Origin: Bradyrhizobium quebecense
Lineage (GTDB): Bacteria > Pseudomonadota > Alphaproteobacteria > Rhizobiales > Xanthobacteraceae
Direction of reading: 5' to 3'
DNA: 64,000 bases
NCBI RefSeq assembly: GCF_013373795.3
Contig: NZ_CP088022.1
Location: forward strand, 2,418,001 to 2,482,000
Below the pieces are notes generated by a model that was not told the DNA's origin, ran no database searches, and was given only the letters and a program-made list of their open reading frames with translations. The position numbers and the translations under genes were made by a program. This document shows, piece by piece, positions 2,788-64,000 of this stretch. How positions within the stretch are numbered: the stretch's first letter is position 1; each line of letters opens with the position of its first letter.

Positions 2788-3540
2788 ATGTCTCTGCTTG
2801 AAGTGAAAGATCTGCAGGTTCGTGTCGAGGAGCGCGAGATCCTCCACGGGCTGTCGCTCACGGTGAACCCGGGCGAGGTGCACGCGATCATGGGGCCGAA
2901 CGGTTCCGGCAAATCGACGCTCTCCCACGTCATCGCCGGCAAGCCCGGCTATGAAGTCACCGGCGGCCAAATCCTGTTCAAGGGCGAAGACCTCCTGGAG
3001 ATGGCGCCCAATGAGCGCGCCGCCAAGGGCGTGTTCCTGGCGTTCCAGTATCCGGTGGAAATCCCCGGCGTGACCACCTGGAATTTCCTCCATGCGGCGC
3101 TCAACGCCCAGCGCAAGGCGCGCGGCGAGGATGAGATTTCGTCGCCGGCCTTCCTCAAGAAGGTCCGCGAAGTGGCGAAGTCGTTGAGCATCCCGCAGGA
3201 CATGCTGAAGCGCGGCGTCAACGTCGGCTTCTCCGGCGGCGAGAAGAAGCGCAACGAGATCTTGCAGATGGCGCTGTTCGAGCCGGCCGTCTGCATCCTC
3301 GACGAAATGGATTCCGGCCTCGACATCGACGCGCTGCGGATCGCCGCCGACGGCGTCAATGCACTGCGCTCGCCGGAGCGCGCGATGGTCGTCATCACCC
3401 ACTATCAGCGGCTGCTCAACTACATCGTGCCCGATTTCGTGCACGTGATGTCGAAGGGCCGGGTGGTGAAGAGCGGCGGCAAGGAACTGGCGCTGGAGCT
3501 GGAAGAGTCCGGCTACGCGCAGTTCGAAGACGCTGCCTGA
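2788..3540 (+). CDS. sufC: SufC, ATPase of the SufBCD complex
   Basis: ABC-type ATPase that powers Fe-S assembly on SufB-SufD; it is cytosolic and not a transporter. It has Walker A GPNGSGKST at residues 36-44, signature FSGGEKKRNEI near residue 148 and Walker B CILDEMDSGLDID near 170. The start is placed at the ATG at 2788, preceded by AGGA eight bases away. An in-frame TTG at 2761 would add nine unlikely residues. This gives 250 residues, the standard SufC length. It lies between sufB and sufD. Confidence 0.97.
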   Translation: MSLLEVKDLQVRVEEREILHGLSLTVNPGEVHAIMGPNGSGKSTLSHVIAGKPGYEVTGGQILFKGEDLLEMAPNERAAKGVFLAFQYPVEIPGVTTWNFLHAALNAQRKARGEDEISSPAFLKKVREVAKSLSIPQDMLKRGVNVGFSGGEKKRNEILQMALFEPAVCILDEMDSGLDIDALRIAADGVNALRSPERAMVVITHYQRLLNYIVPDFVHVMSKGRVVKSGGKELALELEESGYAQFEDAA

Positions 3541-3557
3541 CAAATGCGGGTTCTCAG

Positions 3558-4880
3558 ATGAACGTTGTTGCAAAGACCGAGACCGGGCGCGCGCTGGGCG
3601 ATGCTTTCGCCGTTGCGCGCGACCGTCTGCCGGGCAAGGGCAAGATCGCCGATCAGCGCCGCGAGGCGTTCGAGGCTTATGAGCGCCTTGGTCTGCCGCA
3701 TCGCCGGATCGAGGACTGGAAATATACCGACCTGCGCGCGCTGATGCGCGAGGTGCTGCCGCTGGCCCCTGCGCCGGATGCGGCGGCGCTGGGGCGTGCT
3801 GCTGCTGCGGTCAAGCTGCGGGCGATCGACGGCGTACGCCGCCTGGTGCTGGTCGATGGCGCGTTCGCGCCCGACCTCTCCGACCTCGGTAATCTCGATA
3901 AGGGACTGAGCATCCGCCCGCTGCGCGAGGTGCTCGATGCCGGCGAGGACGCGCTTTCCGCGCAGGCCTTTGCGTCAGACACGTCCAATCCGATGATTGC
4001 GCTGAACGGCGCAATGGCGACCGATGGCGTCGTTATCGACATCGCCAATGGCACGGTGCTGGCCCAGCCGCTGCACATCGTCCACGTTGCATCCGGCGCG
4101 ACGCCGGCTGCGATGTTCACGCGCTCGCTGCTCCGGCTCGGCCGCGATACCGGCGTGACGCTGGTGGAGAGCTATCTCGCCGGCGAGGGCGCCAAGGCTT
4201 ACCAGACCCATGATGGGCTGATTGTCGCGATCGGCGACAATGCGCGGCTCGATCATGTGCGTCTGGTCGAAGACAGCGTCGATGCCTTCAACATTTCCTC
4301 GGCGACGGTGACGCTTGGCGCGCACGCCCATTTCAACACGTTCGGTCTGACCTCGGGCGGTCATGTCAGCCGCTATCAGTTGACGGTCACCTGCGCCGGC
4401 GAAGGCTCCAATGTCGAGACCAACGGCGTCAATCTGATCAACGGCAAGCAGCACGCCGACACCACGCTGTTCGTGGATCATGCGGTGCCGCACTGCGCGA
4501 GCCGCGAGATCTTCCGTGCCGTCGTCGACGACCGTGCCCATTCCGTGTTCCAGGGCCGCATCATCGTCCGTCCCGACGCCCAGAAGACCGACGCCAAGAT
4601 GATGACCCGCGCGCTGCTGCTGTCCGACGACGCGGAAGCCGACAACAAGCCCGAGCTCGAGATCTTCGCCGACGACGTCACCTGCGGCCATGGTGCGACC
4701 ACCGGTGCGCTCGACGAGAGCCTGCTGTTCTACATGCGCGCCCGCGGACTGCCCGAGAAGGAAGCGCAGGCGCTTCTGATCCAGGCCTTTGTCGGCGAGG
4801 CGATCGAGACGATTGCCAGCGACGCGTTGCGCGAGGTCGCAATTGCCACCGCGCAGCGCTGGCTTCAGGCGAGGGCGTGA
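3558..4880 (+). CDS. sufD: SufD, Fe-S cluster assembly partner of SufB
   Basis: Paralogue of SufB that forms the SufBC2D complex. The 440-residue protein has an N-terminal helical part with the family motif RRIEDWKYTDLR near residue 53. The C-terminal beta-helix core includes HGATTGALDESLLFYMRARG. It starts 17 bp after sufC, and its stop overlaps the GTG start of sufS, which points to coupled translation. Length and context fit SufD. Confidence 0.95.
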   Translation: MNVVAKTETGRALGDAFAVARDRLPGKGKIADQRREAFEAYERLGLPHRRIEDWKYTDLRALMREVLPLAPAPDAAALGRAAAAVKLRAIDGVRRLVLVDGAFAPDLSDLGNLDKGLSIRPLREVLDAGEDALSAQAFASDTSNPMIALNGAMATDGVVIDIANGTVLAQPLHIVHVASGATPAAMFTRSLLRLGRDTGVTLVESYLAGEGAKAYQTHDGLIVAIGDNARLDHVRLVEDSVDAFNISSATVTLGAHAHFNTFGLTSGGHVSRYQLTVTCAGEGSNVETNGVNLINGKQHADTTLFVDHAVPHCASREIFRAVVDDRAHSVFQGRIIVRPDAQKTDAKMMTRALLLSDDAEADNKPELEIFADDVTCGHGATTGALDESLLFYMRARGLPEKEAQALLIQAFVGEAIETIASDALREVAIATAQRWLQARA

Positions 4881-6124
4881 GCATGCACAAGGCGGTCGCC
4901 AACGGTTCCTACGACGTCGCCCTGGTGCGGCAGGATTTCCCGGCGCTCGCCATGCAGATCTATGGCAAGCCGCTGGTCTATCTCGACAACGCGGCCTCGG
5001 CGCAGAAGCCGAATGCGGTGCTCGACCGCATGACCGAGGCCTACAAGAGCGAATACGCCAACGTGCATCGCGGCCTGCATTACCTCGCCAATGCCGCGAC
5101 TGAGGCTTATGAGGGCGCCCGCGGCAAGGTCGCGCAGTTCATCAACGCCCGCCGCACTGAAGAGATCGTCTTCACCCGCAACGTCACCGAGGCGATCAAC
5201 CTGGTGGCGTCGTCCTGGGGCGGGGTGAACATCAAGGAGGGCGACGAGATCGTCCTCTCGATCATGGAGCACCACTCCAACATCGTGCCGTGGCACTTCC
5301 TCCGGGAGCGCCATGGTGCCGTGATCAAGTGGGCGCCGGTCGACGACGAGGGCAATTTCCTGATCGAGGAGTTCGAGAAGCTCCTGAGCCCGCGCACCAA
5401 GATCGTCGCGATCACCCAGATGTCGAACGCGCTCGGCACCCTGGTTCCGGTCAAGGAGGTGGTCCGGCTCGCGCACGCCCGCGGCATTCCGGTGCTGGTC
5501 GACGGCGCGCAAGGCGCGGTGCATCTGCCGATCGACGTCCAGGACCTCGATTGCGATTTCTACGCCTTTACCGGCCACAAGGTGTACGGGCCGACCGGCA
5601 TCGGCGCGCTCTACGCCAAGCACGAGCATCTGGTGGCGATGCGGCCGTTCAACGGCGGCGGCGAGATGATCCGTGAAGTGGCCAAGGACTGGGTCACCTA
5701 TGGCGATCCGCCGCACAAGTTCGAGGCGGGGACGCCGCCGATCGTCGAGGCGATCGGGCTGGGTGCTGCGATCGACTACGTCAATTCGATCGGCAAGGAG
5801 CGGATCGCCGCGCATGAGCATGAGCTGCTGACCTATGCGCAAGACCGCTTGCGCGAGATTAACTCGCTGCGCGTGATCGGAACCGCCCGCAACAAGGGGC
5901 CGGTGATCTCCTTCGAGATGAAGGGCGCGCATCCCCACGATGTCGCGACTGTGATCGACCGGCAGGGCATTGCGGTGCGTGCCGGCACCCATTGCGTGAT
6001 GCCGCTTTTAGAGCGGTTCAACGTCACGGCCACCTGCCGCGCATCCTTCGGGATGTATAATACAAGGGAAGAAGTCGACCATCTGGCGCAAGCGCTGATC
6101 AAGGCGCGGGAATTGTTCGCATGA
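4877..6124 (+). CDS. sufS: SufS, group II cysteine desulfurase
   Basis: PLP-dependent cysteine desulfurase that supplies sulphur to SufBCD. The PLP lysine is in TGHKVYGPTGIGALY, and the catalytic cysteine in GTHCVMPLL is residue 373. The usual SufS C-terminal region RASFGMYNTREEVD is present. The GTG at 4877 overlaps the sufD stop, and an ATG at 4883 is an alternative start. No sufE gene is seen next to it. The next gene overlaps by four bases (ATGA). Confidence 0.96.
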   Translation: MSMHKAVANGSYDVALVRQDFPALAMQIYGKPLVYLDNAASAQKPNAVLDRMTEAYKSEYANVHRGLHYLANAATEAYEGARGKVAQFINARRTEEIVFTRNVTEAINLVASSWGGVNIKEGDEIVLSIMEHHSNIVPWHFLRERHGAVIKWAPVDDEGNFLIEEFEKLLSPRTKIVAITQMSNALGTLVPVKEVVRLAHARGIPVLVDGAQGAVHLPIDVQDLDCDFYAFTGHKVYGPTGIGALYAKHEHLVAMRPFNGGGEMIREVAKDWVTYGDPPHKFEAGTPPIVEAIGLGAAIDYVNSIGKERIAAHEHELLTYAQDRLREINSLRVIGTARNKGPVISFEMKGAHPHDVATVIDRQGIAVRAGTHCVMPLLERFNVTATCRASFGMYNTREEVDHLAQALIKARELFA

Positions 6125-44474: not shown

Positions 44475-45497
44475 TCACTTAGCTTCTGCAGCGTCGGATT
44501 GCCAGTCCGGATGGTGGTGCCCATAGGTCGTTTGGAGCATTTCAAGGCTCATTCCAAGGGATCGGGCGGCCTGCCACGGGTCGACGCGCTGGCGCATCAT
44601 GTGGGTGGCCCGGGAGTGCCGCAAGGTGTGCGGGGTGACGTCCTTCGATAGCCCGGCCAGTTTGCGAGCGGCGCGCCAGCCTTCGCCGTGGTCGAGGACC
44701 GGCCGGCCGCCGTATTCCATGATGTACTTTGCCTTGGGCCCATCGAGCCGGCGCCAGCGGCGCAGGTGCGATAAAAGCCGCCGACCGGCCCGTACTGGCG
44801 GCGTCCGCTTCTTCGTCTCCGCGAGGCCGTCAGGGCGCCTCTGCATGATGCCGGTTTCCAGGTCCGCCATCTTCCAGGACGTGCGGCCTATGGCCGTGTG
44901 GCGGGTTCCTGTGTACCACCCGATGATGAAAAACCGGAACAGGCGCTTGCGCTGTCCGGGATTGAGCCGCCGGACGCCATGCCAGAGGAATTGGGCGGCC
45001 TCCGACCTGGTGAGCCAGCGCGTTCGCTTCTGTGGCGTCGGCGGCTTCGCAACGATCGGGAGCGCTCGGAGCGGGCCCTTGCCGCTCTTCTTGTGCCAAT
45101 AGATCGCCGCTGCGTGCAGCATCCCGATTTCCCGCCGGCATATGGTCGGTGCGCTGCGGTGTGCAATGTAGAGCTTGCAGTTCTCCGGGGTGATGGCGCT
45201 CGCTGGCTTGCCGCCCCACCATTCCTCAAGGTTGACCATATCGGCCGCCACGGACGCGGCGGACGGTTTGCCGGTCAACCACTCGTCGGAATAGACCTTG
45301 AGCATGTCCGCAATGAGCGGATCGCTGCCGGCGGCTATGCTGTGGTTAGCTGCGAGGTACGCCGCGAGGAAGTCTTGAGCTGCTTGAAGCTCGCTCTTGC
45401 CGCAGCCCGTGCGGACTGTTTTTCGGCCGTCGATGACGGTGAAGGTTTCGCGCTCGGGGTCGAGCCAGAGGCGAGGGCCGGACTTTGGGCGCGGCAT
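44475..45497 (-). CDS. int: Phage integrase, tyrosine recombinase
   Basis: Site-specific recombinase of 340 residues that inserts and excises the prophage. The catalytic residues are Arg199 (YTGTRHTAI), Lys229 or Lys230, His290 and Arg293 (TPHTLRHSRATHMM), and the nucleophile Tyr325 (LQTTYGHHHPD). Where most relatives have Gly-His before the tyrosine, this protein has Gly-Met (SLGMSLEM). It is the gene closest to efp, as expected near the attachment site. Confidence 0.93.
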   Translation of the reverse strand: MPRPKSGPRLWLDPERETFTVIDGRKTVRTGCGKSELQAAQDFLAAYLAANHSIAAGSDPLIADMLKVYSDEWLTGKPSAASVAADMVNLEEWWGGKPASAITPENCKLYIAHRSAPTICRREIGMLHAAAIYWHKKSGKGPLRALPIVAKPPTPQKRTRWLTRSEAAQFLWHGVRRLNPGQRKRLFRFFIIGWYTGTRHTAIGRTSWKMADLETGIMQRRPDGLAETKKRTPPVRAGRRLLSHLRRWRRLDGPKAKYIMEYGGRPVLDHGEGWRAARKLAGLSKDVTPHTLRHSRATHMMRQRVDPWQAARSLGMSLEMLQTTYGHHHPDWQSDAAEAK

Positions 45498-48771: not shown

Positions 48772-49587
48772 TCAGGCCTTCTTGAAATTCGCAATGGCGT
48801 TGATGCAGGCGGGATAGCTGGCGGCGGGCAGTTCCTCGATTTTCCGCTGACGGCCGTTCAAATGGCCCTTGCTCGCGGCCCATCCGAGAAACGCCGTTAC
48901 GCTCGCGCCCTTCTCTTCCAGCGCTTCGCGGATGTAGTCCGCCTGGTCCTGGGTGATCGATCCGGCCGGCGGCGTGTATGCGGCTTCCTCGGCCGGCCGG
49001 TCGCTGGCGTGGCCGTCGTCATCCTCGGCGGCCGCGAGGCCAAGCGCGGCCTTGAGCGTGTAGCGCTGCAAATAAGTGACGGTCGAGCCGACGCCCTGGA
49101 TGTGGTTCTTGTTGCCGCTCTCATCGCGGCCGGCGTGCAGCGTCGTTTCCTCAAAATGCCCATCACGGTGCGATAGGACGCATGTCACCGAAACCGGCTC
49201 GTTGAGCTTGGACGAAACGCGGAAGCGATACGAGAGGCCGAACCGGCCCAAGATCGGGTCGACGGTGCGGGCGATCTCGGCAAGATCCTCATGCGCGTAG
49301 TCGGTGCGCGCGGCGCCGGCCTTGCGGCTCTCGAACCCAACCCGGCGGTTCTTCCTGATAACCGGGATTTCGGCCTTCGCCTCGGCCATTGCCACGTCAA
49401 ACGCCTTGCGGGCGGCGAGAGCATCCATTTCCTTCGCGAGCGCGACGGCCTCGCGGTACATTTCGACGTTGCCGGTCTCCAGCGCGGCGCGAACAATGTC
49501 CATAGGCTGGGTGACGGTCGCCACGGCGCGCGGGCGGCGCGTCGCAAGCGGCTTGATGTTGTCGGCGGGGAGCGGTTCGGCAGACAT
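48772..49587 (-). CDS. erf: ERF-family single-strand DNA annealing protein
   Basis: A 271-residue recombinase that anneals complementary strands, as Erf of P22 does. The ERF domain at about residues 45-185 has TDYAHEDLAEIARTVDPILG and GVGSTVTYLQRYTLKAALGL. The tail after residue 195 is linker plus a small helical C-terminal domain. It overlaps the next gene's stop by TAATG. With the YqaJ exonuclease it should give the phage its own recombination system. Confidence 0.9.
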   Translation of the reverse strand: MSAEPLPADNIKPLATRRPRAVATVTQPMDIVRAALETGNVEMYREAVALAKEMDALAARKAFDVAMAEAKAEIPVIRKNRRVGFESRKAGAARTDYAHEDLAEIARTVDPILGRFGLSYRFRVSSKLNEPVSVTCVLSHRDGHFEETTLHAGRDESGNKNHIQGVGSTVTYLQRYTLKAALGLAAAEDDDGHASDRPAEEAAYTPPAGSITQDQADYIREALEEKGASVTAFLGWAASKGHLNGRQRKIEELPAASYPACINAIANFKKA

Positions 49588-52628: not shown

Positions 52629-53336
52629 CTAGCGTCGCCCCTTATACATCCCCACCACCTGATGGCAGATCGGCCAATCCGCACGATGTTCCGAGAACGT
52701 CTTGGCCGGATTGTATTGCTCGAGTTTAAGGCTGCGATCATTGAACCCTACAAGACGCTTGATCATCGATTTTGCGTCGCCGGTGCGTGGATCGTGATCG
52801 TACAGGATAACGTCTGTGTCCCGCTCGGGTGGTCGGCGAGGGTGCACTAGCGCCATATCGCCGGGCCGATAGGCCGGTACCATAGATTCGCCCACAACAA
52901 GAACGCCGTAGCTATCCGGAACGCCCTCCAGGATCACCGGCCGCTTTACCCATTCCATCACGTCGGTATGAACAATCATGAAGCCTTCGCCACCGTGTGC
53001 GGCGGCGTAGATCGGGAAATCGCGAACCCCAACGAGCTGATTGCCGGGAACAAAGGTGCTCGGGGACGGCTCGGCGAAGGCGGCCGTAAACCCTGGCGTG
53101 ACCTTGATTGGCGAAGTTCCCGCGCCCAAAAGGTCCGCGACCGTCCAATCAAGGGCGCGGGCAACTTGCTCGTGCTTATCCGAGCGAATGGATGCCTTTT
53201 TCCCGTTGATGAAGTCGCGAATGTAGGTGCGTTCGAGCCCAACATTTGCCGCGGCCGTGATCGGCGAACGGTCCAGCTCGGCGAGCCTAGCTGCCATCCG
53301 CGCACGCATATCAGGTTTTAAGTCCTTGTCCTTCAT
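52629..53336 (-). CDS. Prophage repressor, XRE plus S24 peptidase-like domain
   Basis: CI-type repressor of 235 residues. The helix-turn-helix is at residues 20-65 (ITAAANVGLERTYIRDFING). The C-terminal S24 domain has Ser151 (VVGESMVPAYRPGD) and Lys193 (SMIKRLVG), the LexA-like dyad. No Ala-Gly cleavage pair is seen at the usual distance; the nearest is AAAHGG at 111-116, so SOS cleavage is uncertain. ATG 53336 touches an operator, and a -10 box lies only 6 bases before it. Confidence 0.9.
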   Translation of the reverse strand: MKDKDLKPDMRARMAARLAELDRSPITAAANVGLERTYIRDFINGKKASIRSDKHEQVARALDWTVADLLGAGTSPIKVTPGFTAAFAEPSPSTFVPGNQLVGVRDFPIYAAAHGGEGFMIVHTDVMEWVKRPVILEGVPDSYGVLVVGESMVPAYRPGDMALVHPRRPPERDTDVILYDHDPRTGDAKSMIKRLVGFNDRSLKLEQYNPAKTFSEHRADWPICHQVVGMYKGRR

Positions 53337-53425
53337 GTGGAAATTATCCCACTTAGGGTAGGATTTTCCAAATGGAAACAATCCCACTAAATCCCCTTGT
53401 AGAGTAGGATTTATTCCACTATCCT
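53337..53425. promoter_or_regulatory. Right operator region with back-to-back promoters
   Basis: Three dyads match GTGGAA-N3-ATCCCAC: 53337-53352 (perfect), 53372-53387 (first base A) and, inverted, 53404-53419 (one mismatch). The rightward promoter has TTGTAG (53397-53402), a 17-bp spacer that contains the third dyad, then TATCCT (53420-53425). The repressor's own promoter has minus-strand TTGGAA (53371-53366), 17 bp, and GATAAT (53348-53343) inside the first dyad. This is a lambda-like switch with autoregulation. Confidence 0.8.
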
Positions 53426-53434
53426 GTTTGGGTG

Positions 53435-53707
53435 ATGCAGCAATCATTCGAACAAGTTTGCAAAAAAAAGCTGTTGGCGTGTGCCGATGCATACGCGAGG
53501 CAGCGAAATATCAAGCTTACGACCCTGGGCCGGATTGTCGTCAATGACAGCCGGTTCTTCTCGCAGATGCACGATAGCGGTCGCAGCTTCACCGTCCGCA
53601 AGTACGACGAAATCTTGCACTGGTTCTCGCGGAATTGGGCGCCTGGCGTTGCTTGGCCCGATTTGGTTGAGCGGCCCGCCGTTCCCGTAGCGCGGGACGC
53701 CGCCTGA
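53435..53707 (+). CDS. Cro-position early protein, likely DNA-binding
   Basis: A 90-residue protein directly under the rightward promoter. RNIKLTTLGRIVVNDSRFFS and SFTVRKYDEILHWFSRNW form a compact helical fold like a helix-turn-helix. The start codon (ATG 53435, or GTG 53432) lies only about 10 bases after the -10 box, so the mRNA may be leaderless. Its place opposite the repressor suggests a Cro-like role. Function is inferred. Confidence 0.75.
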   Translation: MQQSFEQVCKKKLLACADAYARQRNIKLTTLGRIVVNDSRFFSQMHDSGRSFTVRKYDEILHWFSRNWAPGVAWPDLVERPAVPVARDAA

Positions 53708-57356: not shown

Positions 57357-57821
57357 ATGGGACGTCCTACTGACTTCAATCCGGAACTGGCCACTCTGAT
57401 CTGTGCTCGCATGGCTGAGGGCGAAAGTCTGCGCTCGATCTGCCGGGATGAGGAAATGCCCGGCCTCTCTACCGTTTTCCTCTGGCTTTCCAAGGACAAG
57501 GCCTTTGTGGAGCAATACGCGCGCGCGATAGACGCTCGTTCGACGGTCATGGAGGAAGAAATCCTTCAAATCTCGGACGATGCCAGCGGTGATGTGATCG
57601 AGGGCGAGGACGGGTCCGTCAAGGTCAACGCTGAATTCGTCGCCCGGTCTCGGCTCAAGGTCGATACCCGAAAATGGCTGATGGCTCGCATGTCTCCGAA
57701 GAAGTACGGCGACAAGCTGACCACGGAAGTCACCGGCGCGGATGGCGGACCGATTAAGCAGGAAATCAGCCGCATTGAGCTGGTCGCGGCGCCGTTCCCC
57801 TCGAACATAGGGGAAGGCTGA
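57357..57821 (+). CDS. terS: Terminase small subunit
   Basis: DNA-recognition subunit of the packaging motor, 154 residues. The helix-turn-helix part is GRPTDFNPELATLICARMAE and GESLRSICRDEEMPGLSTVF. It then has the family strings FVARSRLKVDTRKWLMARMS and PKKYGDKL, as in Sf6-type small terminases. It directly precedes a tiny gene and then the large subunit. Confidence 0.9.
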   Translation: MGRPTDFNPELATLICARMAEGESLRSICRDEEMPGLSTVFLWLSKDKAFVEQYARAIDARSTVMEEEILQISDDASGDVIEGEDGSVKVNAEFVARSRLKVDTRKWLMARMSPKKYGDKLTTEVTGADGGPIKQEISRIELVAAPFPSNIGEG

Positions 57822-58550: not shown

Positions 58551-59876
58551 ATGACCGCGGCTCAAATCCTCCTGCCTCCCAAGCTCGTTCCTGTATTCAC
58601 CGGCGAGGCCATGTACCGCGGCGCCTATGGTGGCCGCGGCTCGGCGAAAACGCGCTCGTTTGCAAAGATGGCGGCCGTGCGCGCGATGATGTGGGCAACG
58701 GAAGGCCGCGAAGGCATCATTCTTTGCGGTCGCGAGTTCATGAATTCGCTGGCTGACAGCTCGTTCGCGGAGGTGAAGGCCGCGATCGCTTCTGAGCCGT
58801 TCCTTGCTGCCTTCTTCGATGTCGGTGAGACCTACATCCGGACCAAATGTCGGCGGATTTATTTCGTGTTCGCCGGCCTTCGGCACAATCTGGACAGCAT
58901 CAAGTCCAAAGCGAAGATCCTGCTGCTTTGGGTCGATGAGGCCGAACCGGTCTCGGACAACGCTTGGACCGTCACCATTCCGACCGTGCGCGAAGAGGGC
59001 GCCGAAATCTGGGTCACCTGGAATCCCGATCGCAAGAAGAGCGCGACGCACAAGCGTTTCCGCGAAAACCCGCCTGATGGCTCGAAAATCATTGAGTTGA
59101 ACTGGCGGGATAACCCGTTCTTCCCGAAGATCCTCAACACCACGCGGCTTGATGACCAGAAAAACCGGCCCGATCAATACGATTGGGTCTGGAACGGTGG
59201 TTTCCGGACTGTGGTCGAGGGCGCGTACTACGCCAAAGGGCTGCTCGAGGCGAAAGAGCAGGGCCGGATTACGTTCGTCCCGCGCGACCCGCTCATGCAG
59301 ACGCGGGCCTATTTCGACATCGGCGGGACCGGCGCGCGCGCCGACGCTGTGGCGATCTGGATTGCTCAATTCGTCGGGCAGAAAATCAACGTCCTGGACT
59401 ACTACGAGGCGCAGGGCCAGCCGTTATCGGTCCATATCGACTGGATGCGCTCCCGCGGGTACGGCAACGCCTGGGTGATCTTGCCGCACGACGGCGCGCA
59501 TGGGGACAAGGTTTTCGCGACGTCCTATGAAAGCGCGATCCGGGAAGCCGGGTTTGACGTGCTGGTGATCCCGAACCAGGGCGCCGGCGCGGCCTCGGCG
59601 CGCATTGAGACCGGCCGGCGGCTTTTCCCGCGGTTATTCTTCAATGCTGACACCACTGAGCCGGGCCGCGACGCGCTCGGCTGGTACCATGAGAAGAAAT
59701 CAAACGATGAGCGTAACATCGGGCTCGGGCCAAATCACGATTGGAGTTCGCACGGCGCTGATGGCTTTGGGCTAATGTGCATTCATTACGATCAGCCGGC
59801 CGGCGCAGCGTCGCCGCGCGAACGTTACCGTGATCGGGGCCGTAGCTCGGGTGGCGGGTCATGGCAGAGTGTCTAG
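58551..59876 (+). CDS. terL: Terminase large subunit
   Basis: ATPase and nuclease that packages phage DNA, 441 residues, Terminase_3/PBSX type. Walker A is YGGRGSAKT (residues 26-34), Walker B LLLWVDEAE (124-132), and the nuclease domain opens with AYFDIGGTGARADA (Asp256). The protein ends in a Gly/Ser/Arg tail (SSGGGSWQSV). A second, broken copy of the last 100 bp of this gene lies at 61009, behind the AbiTii gene. Confidence 0.94.
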   Translation: MTAAQILLPPKLVPVFTGEAMYRGAYGGRGSAKTRSFAKMAAVRAMMWATEGREGIILCGREFMNSLADSSFAEVKAAIASEPFLAAFFDVGETYIRTKCRRIYFVFAGLRHNLDSIKSKAKILLLWVDEAEPVSDNAWTVTIPTVREEGAEIWVTWNPDRKKSATHKRFRENPPDGSKIIELNWRDNPFFPKILNTTRLDDQKNRPDQYDWVWNGGFRTVVEGAYYAKGLLEAKEQGRITFVPRDPLMQTRAYFDIGGTGARADAVAIWIAQFVGQKINVLDYYEAQGQPLSVHIDWMRSRGYGNAWVILPHDGAHGDKVFATSYESAIREAGFDVLVIPNQGAGAASARIETGRRLFPRLFFNADTTEPGRDALGWYHEKKSNDERNIGLGPNHDWSSHGADGFGLMCIHYDQPAGAASPRERYRDRGRSSGGGSWQSV

Positions 59877-60007
59877 AGCATATCTTCTAGACCGGAACGG
59901 CCTCGGCCTAGTTGTGTACGATCTAGGGTTGGGCACTGCAAGGTCTTGCAGTCCAGGCGTGAACTGATTACTTGGCAAGATTCCCGTTCCGATCCGCGAG
60001 ACATATT

Positions 60008-61000
60008 ATGTCAGATAAATTGGCCGAGTTGAAACGTGTCGCCTCGACACTGCTTGACGACTTGGAAGGCGGAACGGGAGAGGTAGAGGGCACGCTTATG
60101 AAAGCTAAGCGCCTGGCTCGCCTCATGCGGGATGCCGATGCCCAGCGATGGCTGGAATTTGAAATGACAGGATATCCCTCTGGGTTCGTCTTTTCTAGCC
60201 TCGGTACCTGTGAGAAGTACGTGCGAGGTGGGGGCCGAATTACCTCGGACGACAAATATTACACCACGAGCCTACCGGAGATGGACGCTCGCTGCCGAAC
60301 CGGCGATGCTCGGCTGCGCACCATGGGCAGTCTCATGCAAAGTAATCAGCCTATGGAAAACTACCTGGTCGCCCGGGCCACCGGAGACTTTCTGGCTGGA
60401 CAACGTAAAATCGAGCAGTCCCTGATAAACGGATATCGCCATGACAGAGCTCTTTTGAGCTCAGTTAAATCTTCGATTCATAGCTACGCCACCGATGCGT
60501 TCCTGGCCATAGAATTGGGAGATGTCGCGCAAGACATATTCGAGACGGCGCGGCGCGACGTCGACAATTTCGTGCGGGCGTACTGTCCTAAGGCGGCTGA
60601 ACAGCTGATTGCAATCAACGAACGGATGGCCGACAACTCTACGGAGTCTCGCACGGCCGCTCTCACGACCTGTCGGCGTCTGCTGATGACGGTGGCCGAC
60701 TCGCTCTATCCAGCTACGACGGAGGATTGGAAGGACGCGAGCGGAAAGGCTCGCAAAGTGGGGCAGGAGCAATACAAGAACCGCCTATTGGCGTATTTGG
60801 CCGACCTTACGCATCGAGATAGTTCGCAAGCAGTCGTAACCGCAGGCCTAGAGCATCTGGCGGCCCGGTTGGACGCGATCTACGACAAGACGTGCAAAGG
60901 TGTGCATGTTGATGTATCCGAGCAAGAAGCTCGGCTTGCAGTGATCCATACTTACCTTTTTATCGGCGAGATCGCATCTGCGACGACCGCAGCCGGTTAG
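60008..61000 (+). CDS. AbiTii-domain protein, candidate abortive-infection gene
   Basis: A 330-residue protein. Residues 1-70 match the AbiTii N-terminal domain (SDKLAELKRVASTLLDDLEG; LMKAKRLARLMRDADAQRWL; EFEMTGYPSG). Residues 215-325 are a helical domain with TCRRLLMTVADSLYP and KGVHVDVSEQEARLAVIHTY, as seen in Abi/HEPN-like proteins; no clear RNase motif is found. ATG 60008 is preferred over TTG 59972. Base use is less GC-rich than in the terminase. It is cargo between terL and portal, probably acting against other phages. Confidence 0.75.
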   Translation: MSDKLAELKRVASTLLDDLEGGTGEVEGTLMKAKRLARLMRDADAQRWLEFEMTGYPSGFVFSSLGTCEKYVRGGGRITSDDKYYTTSLPEMDARCRTGDARLRTMGSLMQSNQPMENYLVARATGDFLAGQRKIEQSLINGYRHDRALLSSVKSSIHSYATDAFLAIELGDVAQDIFETARRDVDNFVRAYCPKAAEQLIAINERMADNSTESRTAALTTCRRLLMTVADSLYPATTEDWKDASGKARKVGQEQYKNRLLAYLADLTHRDSSQAVVTAGLEHLAARLDAIYDKTCKGVHVDVSEQEARLAVIHTYLFIGEIASATTAAG

Positions 61001-61008
61001 TGCCGCTG

Positions 61009-61111
61009 ATGCGCATTCGCTTCGATCGGCCGGCCGGCCGGCGCGCCGCCTCCGCGGGAGCGCTACGGGCGCCGCTCCAGCTCGGGCGGTGGCTCTTGGC
61101 AAAGTGTCTAA
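61009..61111 (+). pseudogene. Decayed second copy of the terminase 3' end
   Basis: About 100 bp repeat the last codons of terL (59775-59876). ATGCGCATTCGCTTCGATCG matches ATGTGCATTCATTACGATCA, and after one extra base the frame reads APPPRERYGRRSSSGGGSWQ and SV, ending at the same SWQSV-stop. It has no start and the added base breaks the frame, so it is a relic. It begins just after the AbiTii stop and marks a recombination joint. Confidence 0.82.
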
Positions 61112-61112
61112 C

Positions 61113-61850
61113 CTAGCCGTTCGCCAACTTACCGACTTTGGTTAAGGCGTCATCGACCATAGAGACGGCTCGATCCAGAGTCTCTACTACAGCCGCGTTC
61201 GGCACCGACGTCCCGGGTCCGAATTTTGTGTCCACAATTGCACTGCAGTCGGAGCTATATTCAATGTGAGAGAGTGACCTGACTAGTCTAATTGGAGACG
61301 CGGCGTTCCCTTCCACACTGCAATTCTTGAGTGTGTTGGTGCCCTGCTTAATGTTGATATTTTTCACCATCACCATCGCGACGGTTGGGATGAAATCGGA
61401 ATGCTTGTTATCGTTGTTGGCTTTGCCGAGAAGATCCCATAGCGGCTCGTTCGCGCCACCTTCTGGCCTTATCTCCCCTAAAAGCAAATCTTTGAAGCCG
61501 GACAGTTTCGCGTCTATCGGCGCTATGCTGGTGTGGCTAGCAAGGTCTTTTCGAGGGGCGACCGGGAAATAAACTTTCGTACCGGGCTCGACAATGCGAA
61601 CCGCCGCGAAGTCGAGGGCGCTCCGAAGATTTCCTAGTGCGTCGCCGACGATGCTCGCGAGCCTTTCGGAAATGGCCTCTTTGGGCTGATAGTTCAGGTC
61701 GATTGTCCGCGTGTTGATCGATGTCCACATCTCGATAGTCAAGATCTCATAAAATTCCTTGGAGAGCGGATTCGTCTTTTCCTTAAAGCGAGCGATATTG
61801 TCGCGTGCCGCACTAATTTTGATGCGAGATGGGCCGAGGTCGAGCGGCAT
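61113..61850 (-). CDS. Hypothetical protein, opposing strand cargo gene
   Basis: A 245-residue protein on the minus strand, against all nearby phage genes. The string SIVGDALGNLRSALDFAAVR is typical of a widespread family of unknown function with an NLRxALD motif. The GC content is lower than in flanking phage genes. ATG 61850 is the start. Opposite direction and base use suggest a moron expressed in the lysogen. A defence role is possible but unproven. Confidence 0.7.
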   Translation of the reverse strand: MPLDLGPSRIKISAARDNIARFKEKTNPLSKEFYEILTIEMWTSINTRTIDLNYQPKEAISERLASIVGDALGNLRSALDFAAVRIVEPGTKVYFPVAPRKDLASHTSIAPIDAKLSGFKDLLLGEIRPEGGANEPLWDLLGKANNDNKHSDFIPTVAMVMVKNINIKQGTNTLKNCSVEGNAASPIRLVRSLSHIEYSSDCSAIVDTKFGPGTSVPNAAVVETLDRAVSMVDDALTKVGKLANG

Positions 61851-61981
61851 TAATGTACCCTTGCAATTGTTCGAAGAACGATCGTATCAGCACAATTCTA
61901 GCGGGAGCAGGCCCAGGGACAAGACAAAACATTTCCGAGCGCGTGGTACCACCAAAATTCAATCCGGACGGATGAACTTTG

Positions 61982-64000
61982 ATGCTGAACGACGCGGGCG
62001 GCTACGGGCCGGGCGAAAAGGACGAGCGGGAGGCGCCGACCGATGCTGACGGCATCTTCTCCAAGCTCCAAAAGTGGTGCAAAACCGACTTCAACAGCAA
62101 GGGCCAAACGGCCTGGCGCACGGCGGCCCGCGAGGATTTCGACTTTGAGGCCGGCGAGCAGCTAACGGAAGATGACAAGGCGATTCTGCAGGATGCAAAG
62201 CGCCCGATCGTCATTTTCAACCGCGTTGGGCCCGTGGTCGATAGCGTCGCCGGCCAAGAGGTCGGCAACAGGCAGGAAGTCCAGTTCCTGCCGCGCACCG
62301 AGGGTGATGTACAGGTCAACGAGCTGCTGACGTCGGCGGCGAAGTGGTTCCGGCAACAGTGCGACGCTGAGGACGAGGAAAGCGACGCCTTCCGCGACAT
62401 GGTTGTTTGCGGCATGGGCTGGACCGAAACCCTCCTCGACTATGAGGACAATCCCGAGGGCGATCCCAAGATTGAGCGGCGCGACCCGCTCGAAATGGTG
62501 TGGGATAGCGGCGCGTCCAAGCGAAACCTGCGCGACATGCGTCGGGTTTTCCACATCCGCCGCGGTGTGCCGCTGGATGAGGCGAGGGCGCTTTGCCCGG
62601 GCGATCCCGATCGGCCGTTCGAGGACGCGGATTACAACGCTTCATGGATCGATGACGTCGGCGCCAAGGACGAGGGCAAGCCGCACGAAAACGACAATCG
62701 GTTCTATAACAAGGACAGCACCGGCGACGGCGAGGATAGCGGCGACGGCGTGACGATGGTGCGCGCGCAGTGGTGGGAGCGCGTCCCGGTCTATCTGGTG
62801 TTGGATCCGACCGACCCGACCGGCGAGAAGATCCTGACGCTGGATAAGGACGAGTTTGAGGATTTGAGCGCCAAGGCGAAGCTCGCCGGCGGCTCGCTGC
62901 GCTTCACCAAGTCGACGCGGAAGGTCTACCGGCAGGCCTATCTTGGCTCGGTGCTGCTCGAGATCGGCGACGCGCCCTGCGAAGGCCATTTCTCGTTCCA
63001 GTGCATGACCGGCAAGCGGGACCGAAACAAAAACACGTTCTTCGGCCTGGTCCGCGCCATGAAGGATCCGGCGCGCTGGTCGAACAAGTGGATGTCGCAG
63101 ACCATGCACATCATGAATACGACCGCAAAGGGCGGCGTGGCGGTCGAGCGCGGCCAGTTCTTCGACAACGACGCGGACGGTGAGGCGTCCTGGGCGAAAC
63201 AGGACACGGTGACGTTCCTCAAGCCTGGCGCGCTCGGATCGAGCCCGAAATTCGTTCAAAAACCGACGTCTCAGTTCCCGCAATCGTCGTTCGAACTGAT
63301 GCAGTATGCCGTCACCTCGCTCCGCGACGTCTCGGGCGTCAACGTCGAAATTCTCGGCATGCAGAGCGCTGCCGGGCAGGCGGCCAGTCTCGATCTCCAG
63401 CGCAAGCAATCCGCACTGACCATCTTGCAACCGCTGTTTGACAGCCTGCGCCGGTACCGCAAGTCACAGGGCCGGCTGATGCTGTACCTGATCGAGCATT
63501 ACCTTTCGGACGGCCGCCTTATCAAGATCGAGGGCGAGGAAAACGCGCAATATGTGCCGCTCGTCAAGCAACAGGCGACTACCGGCGCGTCGCAGTATGA
63601 CGTCATCGTTGACGAAAGCCCGACGTCGGCGAACCAGAAAGAGGCGACCTGGTCGATGCTGCAACAGCTGTTGCCCGTCATCGGCAAGATGCTGCCGCCG
63701 GCAACCTGGCTCGCGCTGCTCAAGTATTCGCCGCTGCCGACCTCGGCGCAAAAGGCGATCTCGGACAGCATCCAGCAGTCCCAGCAGCAGCCCGATCCGG
63801 AGCAACAGAAGCGCGACGCGGAATTGAAGCTTGAGAACGACAAGGCGCAGGCGAAAATCGCCAACGACAAGGCCGCCTCGGACGCCAAAGTCCAGACCAT
63901 GCAGCAGGAAAGCGCGGCAAAGATGCAGCTCGCCGCGCAGGAGGCGCAGCATAGCGCCATGCTCAAGGCTTTGACCGCGCCTCCCACGGTCGACCCAGCG
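61982..64000 (+). CDS. Portal protein, P22-like, 3' end outside window
   Basis: Forms the channel through which DNA enters the head. The frame runs from ATG 61982 with no stop to the window's right edge, giving 673 residues so far. Portal features include RPIVIFNRVGPVVDSVAGQE near residue 75, MQYAVTSLRDVSGVNVEILG, and AAGQAASLDLQRKQ. The visible C-terminal part is Gln/Lys/Ala-rich and coiled (QQSQQQPDPEQQKRDAELKL), like the barrel region of P22 portals. A GGACGGA site lies upstream. Confidence 0.9.
   Translation, partial: MLNDAGGYGPGEKDEREAPTDADGIFSKLQKWCKTDFNSKGQTAWRTAAREDFDFEAGEQLTEDDKAILQDAKRPIVIFNRVGPVVDSVAGQEVGNRQEVQFLPRTEGDVQVNELLTSAAKWFRQQCDAEDEESDAFRDMVVCGMGWTETLLDYEDNPEGDPKIERRDPLEMVWDSGASKRNLRDMRRVFHIRRGVPLDEARALCPGDPDRPFEDADYNASWIDDVGAKDEGKPHENDNRFYNKDSTGDGEDSGDGVTMVRAQWWERVPVYLVLDPTDPTGEKILTLDKDEFEDLSAKAKLAGGSLRFTKSTRKVYRQAYLGSVLLEIGDAPCEGHFSFQCMTGKRDRNKNTFFGLVRAMKDPARWSNKWMSQTMHIMNTTAKGGVAVERGQFFDNDADGEASWAKQDTVTFLKPGALGSSPKFVQKPTSQFPQSSFELMQYAVTSLRDVSGVNVEILGMQSAAGQAASLDLQRKQSALTILQPLFDSLRRYRKSQGRLMLYLIEHYLSDGRLIKIEGEENAQYVPLVKQQATTGASQYDVIVDESPTSANQKEATWSMLQQLLPVIGKMLPPATWLALLKYSPLPTSAQKAISDSIQQSQQQPDPEQQKRDAELKLENDKAQAKIANDKAASDAKVQTMQQESAAKMQLAAQEAQHSAMLKALTAPPTVDPA

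Follow-up and report, generated by a model that had tools for sequence, protein, structure and literature searches.

Introduction

P2-like phages carry a defense hotspot (old/tin) between gpA and the portal gene gpQ, beside cos, for which recombination on co-infection or co-induction has been suggested (Rousset et al. 2022, PMC9122126). Fusions of AbiTii to c2405-type HEPN domains are also on record (Anantharaman et al. 2013, PMC3710099); a table there gives the c2405 type a conserved histidine and shows it as lacking the arginine of the Rx4-6H motif. In lactococci, AbiTii is one component of a two-gene system and has no HEPN domain (PMC3985639, PMC3710099). As for the exchange of diverged DNA, the Erf recombinase of phage D3 is described as active on 78% identical sequences (De Paepe et al. 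2014, PMC3945230). Here, we analyze a locus in a 64,000-nt stretch (hereafter, the window) of the 9.17-Mb genome of Bradyrhizobium quebecense (contig NZ_CP088022.1, positions 2,418,001 to 2,482,000), in which an AbiTii-domain gene lies between the terminase large subunit gene (terL) and the portal gene of a prophage, and in which the end of terL recurs just downstream of the AbiTii gene.

The locus belongs to the packaging module of a temperate prophage whose terS is of the Sf6 type and whose portal is of the P22 type. We propose, with a probability of roughly 70%, that the second copy of the terL end is a stub left by a single recombination event, which would have brought in a foreign terL 3′ end together with the AbiTii gene. 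The locus can be read as a fossil of one exchange of cargo genes within the packaging module of a phage, and it is of an ordinary kind. Both the mechanism and the type of locus are already known, and a defense hotspot adjoining a portal gene has a precedent in the described P2-like phages. Like the P2 locus in that description, the present one is a small, high-turnover cargo locus between two conserved phage genes, adjoins the portal gene and holds anti-phage cargo, here one probable gene (PMC9122126). It differs in belonging to another phage family, in its position between terL and portal, in that the relatives' scanned cargo gives no match in PADLOC, and in that a displaced terL tail marks one exchange.

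The end of terL is present twice

The features from terL to the portal gene are as follows.

58551..59876, plus strand: terL, terminase large subunit, open frame (PF04466, 5.4e-27)
59771-59876, plus strand: tail 1, the last ~105 nt of terL
59877..60007: spacer, the leader of the AbiTii gene, 53% GC
60008..61000, plus strand: AbiTii-domain gene, 330 amino acids, 56% GC (PF18864, PADLOC AbiTii)
61005..61111, plus strand: tail 2, probably the displaced 3′ end of a second terL, its frame broken by a GGCC insertion
61113..61850, minus strand: opposing orphan gene, 245 amino acids, 53% GC, the second cargo gene
61926..61981, plus strand: portal leader (CATTTCC element), right edge of the insert
61979/61982 (start), plus strand: P22-type portal gene (PF16510, 3.3e-107; whole protein 733 amino acids), leaving the window at 64000

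Aligned locally to the gap between terL and portal, the terL tail gave 82 matches in 113 columns and a score of 65, against maxima of 29 in dinucleotide shuffles of the gap (n=100) and 30 in other 2-kb pieces of the window (n=30). In the original prediction, the terL tail recurred, frameshifted, between two genes, the AbiTii gene and one on the opposite strand to which it gave no function; the recurrence is real, its coordinates had been given correctly to within a few bases, and both genes are present. The two tails are 72.8% identical over ungapped columns. The AbiTii stop codon (60998-61000) precedes tail 2 by 4 nt, and a single base separates the end of tail 2 from the opposing gene's stop codon (61113-61115). 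The frame of tail 2 is split by the 4-nt insertion, such that LMRIRFDRPAG lies in one frame and RPAGAPPPRERYGRRSSSGGGSWQSV-stop in another, and read-through as a terL protein is impossible. By blastn, tail 2 matches the terL end of the Bradyrhizobium pachyrhizi phage (80.0% over 105 nt) and that of the related locus L034 (77.9% over 104 nt). No further full-length copy was found in the host genome, where the next best match covers 26 nt of tail 2, and blastn gave the spacer no convincing match in any of the eight loci compared. The cargo genes, at 53–56% GC, stand apart from terS-terL and portal, at 61–63%.

Tail 2 itself has a GC content of 73% and fills nearly all the space between the convergent stop codons, as might be expected of a sequence retained for some separate function, such as that of a terminator between convergent genes. 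However, tail 2 yielded no terminator-like site, and the regional promoter and terminator counts (1 and 1) do not exceed those of shuffled sequences. We regard retention for such a function as very improbable.

Probable origin of the second tail

Mismatches between tail 1 and tail 2 fall 6/5/17 on codon positions 1/2/3, i.e., 17 of 28 at the third position (p=0.0034), and those between tail 2 and the terL tail of the pachyrhizi phage fall 3/5/12 (p=0.015). This excess suggests that tail 2 diverged under coding constraint, in a working terL of another lineage, and tail 2 is thus probably not a locally made copy that decayed. In addition, an extra codon common to tail 1 and the tail of the relative G515 is absent from tail 2 and from six other aligned tails. 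Tail 2 is 80.6% identical to the tail of pachyrhizi, 79.6% to L034, 75.7% to retamae and 73.7% to hereditatis, so that the tails of four of the seven relatives are closer to it than tail 1 is. The individual comparisons are weaker: tail 2 is nearer to pachyrhizi than to tail 1 by 14 vs 6 sites (p=0.12, not significant alone), and nearer to L034 by 10 vs 3 sites, which is not significant.

These data bear directly on a simpler possibility, namely that the terL 3′ end was tandemly duplicated on the spot by unequal exchange, after which the AbiTii gene was inserted and the spare copy decayed. The common strand and the common end point of the two tails agree with it. Neutral decay, however, would spread the mismatches over the codon positions, and neither the missing codon nor the four closer relatives is what a local duplication would leave. 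We therefore consider it improbable. Two caveats attach to this judgement: tail 1 is itself constrained and may contribute to the surplus of third-position mismatches, and both tails are short. A point against the single recombination is that tail 2, with no more than 80.6% identity to pachyrhizi, must either have decayed or have another parent.

The intact terL is a mosaic. Its 5′ end resembles that of G515 (94%), its middle that of L034 (up to 92%), and the part that follows that of the pachyrhizi phage. To the latter it is identical at 412 of 450 sites in 59250-59699, at 57 of 71 in 59700-59770 and at 80 of 103 in tail 1; the likeness thus drops from ~92% to ~80% near 59,700. The arrangement would be most simply accounted for by a joint at about this point: to the right of it would lie the foreign tail with the AbiTii gene, and the old tail would have been displaced.

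The terL–portal junction in relatives

In ten loci, counting the window, the portal was located and terL is at least 69% identical. The distance from terL to portal is 2103 nt in the window, 1518 in G515, 548 in L258 (partial terL), 427 in L032, 656 in hereditatis, 1819 in L034, 2230 in G254, 182 in L037, 111 in pachyrhizi and 69–78 in Bradyrhizobium retamae. Hence, 7 of the 10 hold inserts of at least 400 nt, with differing content, and 3 have less than 200 nt. Cargo-free relatives, as foreseen by the original prediction, do exist, the portal following the terL end at 69–78 nt in B. retamae and at 111 nt in B. pachyrhizi. An eleventh close locus, L033, has no portal within 2861 nt. Taking all 110 loci with a located portal, the gap is zero or negative in 75 (many from Bartonella), 1–120 nt in 7, 121–300 nt in 10, 301–800 nt in 12 and above 800 nt in 6; judged by eye, several of the Bartonella gaps contain no convincing gene.

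The boundaries of the insert are sharp. In G515, pachyrhizi and L034, homology is lost no more than 2 nt from the end of terL and returns at 61926-61930; the portal leader (61926..61981) is kept in these three and in L258. Between the boundaries, L034 carries a GDSL-type hydrolase (PF13472, phrog_8480), and the cargo proteins of G254 and L063 match phrog_16653 ‘hydrolase’. That of L082 matches phrog_10057 ‘DNA methyltransferase’, for which Pfam and PADLOC give no support, and the relatives' cargo also includes proteins of unknown function. This makes the junction a site of variable cargo (a ‘moron’ site), with two cargo genes in the window.

A second terL tail was found in 1 of the 32 gaps of at least 60 nt, that of the window, and in none of the 31 others. 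Accordingly, the expectation that different cargo would lie between the same two tails holds for the cargo and the junction but not for the tails. By the same token, the second tail is not part of a gene in any other gap tested.

In L034, the portal leader element (CATTTCC...TGGTAGCACCGA) occurs twice, at positions 7 and 1771 after the terL stop, around the cargo; we would regard this double leader as a trace comparable to the tail duplication of the window. Elements like the portal leader also occur twice in the L033 gap, and L032 and hereditatis have such elements ahead of the cargo gene.

The two tails might be working recombination sites, att-like or serving as homology arms, of a mobile cassette that restores the terL 3′ end. 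Their layout recalls that of integrative elements at gene ends, and the L034 cargo lies between two leader copies. Set against this are the 31 other gaps without a second tail, the identity of just 73% between the tails, and the lack of a recombinase match among the two cargo genes of the window. Working sites are, in our view, quite improbable, a little more so than the local duplication.

A proposed sequence of events

We return to the single recombination with a stub left behind. In the order and the direction of transfer that we infer, terL of a resident phage would have been followed by the opposing gene and then by the portal gene, and an incoming related phage would have had terL followed by the AbiTii gene. 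The left joint would be homeologous, in the 3′ part of terL at about 59,700. The right joint would be illegitimate, falling just after the AbiTii stop codon and ~105 nt before the resident terL end. terL would have been kept whole, now with the tail of the newcomer, while the resident tail would have remained as a non-coding scar and later gained the GGCC insertion. Two such joints, homeologous in terL and illegitimate in the old tail, would produce just the arrangement observed.

The left joint was probably made by the annealing protein of the prophage itself.

48772..49587, minus strand: Erf-like single-strand annealing protein (phrog_155, 4.6e-28)

This protein is a likely agent of the exchange. 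The 78% identity at which the D3 Erf was active is about the divergence among these terL genes, and mosaic joints in diverged genes, as described for Rad52-like phage recombinases (PMC3945230), have their counterpart here in a prophage with an Erf-like protein and a mosaic terL. Unlike the cases described there, one joint would be illegitimate here and a gene stub was left, and the part of Erf is our proposal. Of the original insertion model, then, the cargo-free relatives, the alternative cargo and the mosaic terL fit the recombination, whereas two-tail loci elsewhere and a defense hotspot are not supported.

Is the junction a defense hotspot?

The scan for defense systems covered a choice of plausible open reading frames from the gaps, and PADLOC covers systems described up to 2023. 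Within this scope, PADLOC matched 1 of the 26 cargo proteins scanned, namely the window's own AbiTii protein; the 24 that came from relatives (17 loci) gave no match. The content between the two conserved genes turns over at a high rate, as in P2/P4-type hotspots; the other mark of such hotspots, a pool of several different anti-phage systems, was not found by the PADLOC scan. The ‘defense hotspot’ of the original prediction therefore reduces to a variable cargo site with one recognizable defense gene.

The AbiTii-domain protein

The protein belongs to the AbiTii-domain family by the PF18864 gathering score, with a match of 34.7 bits (cut-off 27.6) over 46 residues (13-58) near the N-terminus, and the PADLOC AbiTii model matches at 41.4 bits. 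The aligned profile positions are 4-49 of 189 for Pfam and 4-50 of 185 for PADLOC. Conservation extends well beyond this segment: in an alignment of the window's protein with 56 homologues, 57 columns are invariant along the protein. Bradyrhizobium embrapense has a homologue at 89%. The structure model has a predicted local distance difference test (pLDDT) score of 86, and HEPN chains rank 1-3 and 5 in the VIA list; the C-terminal domain is predicted to be HEPN-like and helical. All 57 sequences have H300, and 42 of them also have an R-x4-6-H string somewhere in their C-terminal part; in the window this is R309-x4-H314.

The protein resembles the AbiTii-c2405 HEPN fusions of the published record (PMC3710099) in its N-terminal AbiTii domain, its helical C-terminal domain, its invariant H300 and its best structural matches to HEPN, the c2405 assignment coming from the architecture and the conserved histidine only. 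With the lactococcal AbiT (abiTi/abiTii) it has the AbiTii N-terminal domain in common, but no AbiTi-like partner was recognized beside it, its neighbors being the terL stub and an opposing gene without a match in Pfam, PADLOC or PHROGs. The opposing protein has no match in NCBIfam either; its fold is predicted with confidence, and no solved structure matches it clearly.

A homologue on the chromosome of G334 has genes with TIR, EVE-HNH and FRG domains in its neighborhood. In view of its domain, its conservation and this neighborhood, the AbiTii gene probably protects the lysogen from other phages, presumably by abortive infection through the predicted RNA-directed HEPN domain; judged from sequence, we give a defense function even odds. 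Somewhat behind it in probability, though still a serious contender, is the view that the gene is a neutral or host-directed passenger. The AbiTii models match just 46 residues, the R-x4-6-H string is found in most but not all family members, and the consulted portions of the literature that name AbiTii report no test of this architecture. Against this view stand the conservation along the protein in 57 sequences and the TIR, EVE-HNH and FRG neighborhood in G334. A literature search covering few subscription papers found no functional test of the AbiTii-HEPN architecture.

Implications

A broader reading can be offered tentatively, and we think it rather unlikely in its entirety. The junction of Bradyrhizobium P22/Sf6-type prophages might be a cargo-exchange port, at which the conserved boundary DNA (the terL 3′ end and the portal leader) would serve as homology arms for Erf. 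The exchange in the window would have left one boundary uncleaned, as would that in L034 with the portal leader, and a working AbiTii-HEPN protein would protect the lysogen. For practical purposes, the site offers a cargo position in rhizobial prophages that is open to mining. A functional AbiTii gene would also provide a tractable candidate for the AbiTii-HEPN architecture.

Other features and minor observations

Three further genes of the same prophage lie to the left of terL.

44475-45497: integrase-like gene
52629-53492: repressor-like gene
57357-57821: terS, Sf6-type

The G515 gap (L232) is largely filled by a minus-strand open reading frame of 303–309 amino acids, which had no family hit in the profile searches; its look suggests a tyrosine recombinase, although nothing confirms this. 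tRNA-like genes lie antisense in the gaps of L111 (7332-7433, minus strand) and L258 (3234-3327, plus strand in the raw locus). Their Rfam tRNA scores are 46.4 and 42.7 bits, and both have a longer insert in the anticodon arm; ARAGORN made no call on that of L111. The cargo proteins of L082 and L092 look alike by eye. Finally, L033 is a metagenome phage contig with three genes downstream of terL (3305-4114, 4175-4468 and 4846-5418). The best NCBIfam match of its histidine-kinase-like gene is PhyK, far below cut-off, and a phrog_2293 protein is encoded between this gene and that of a phrog_14602 protein.
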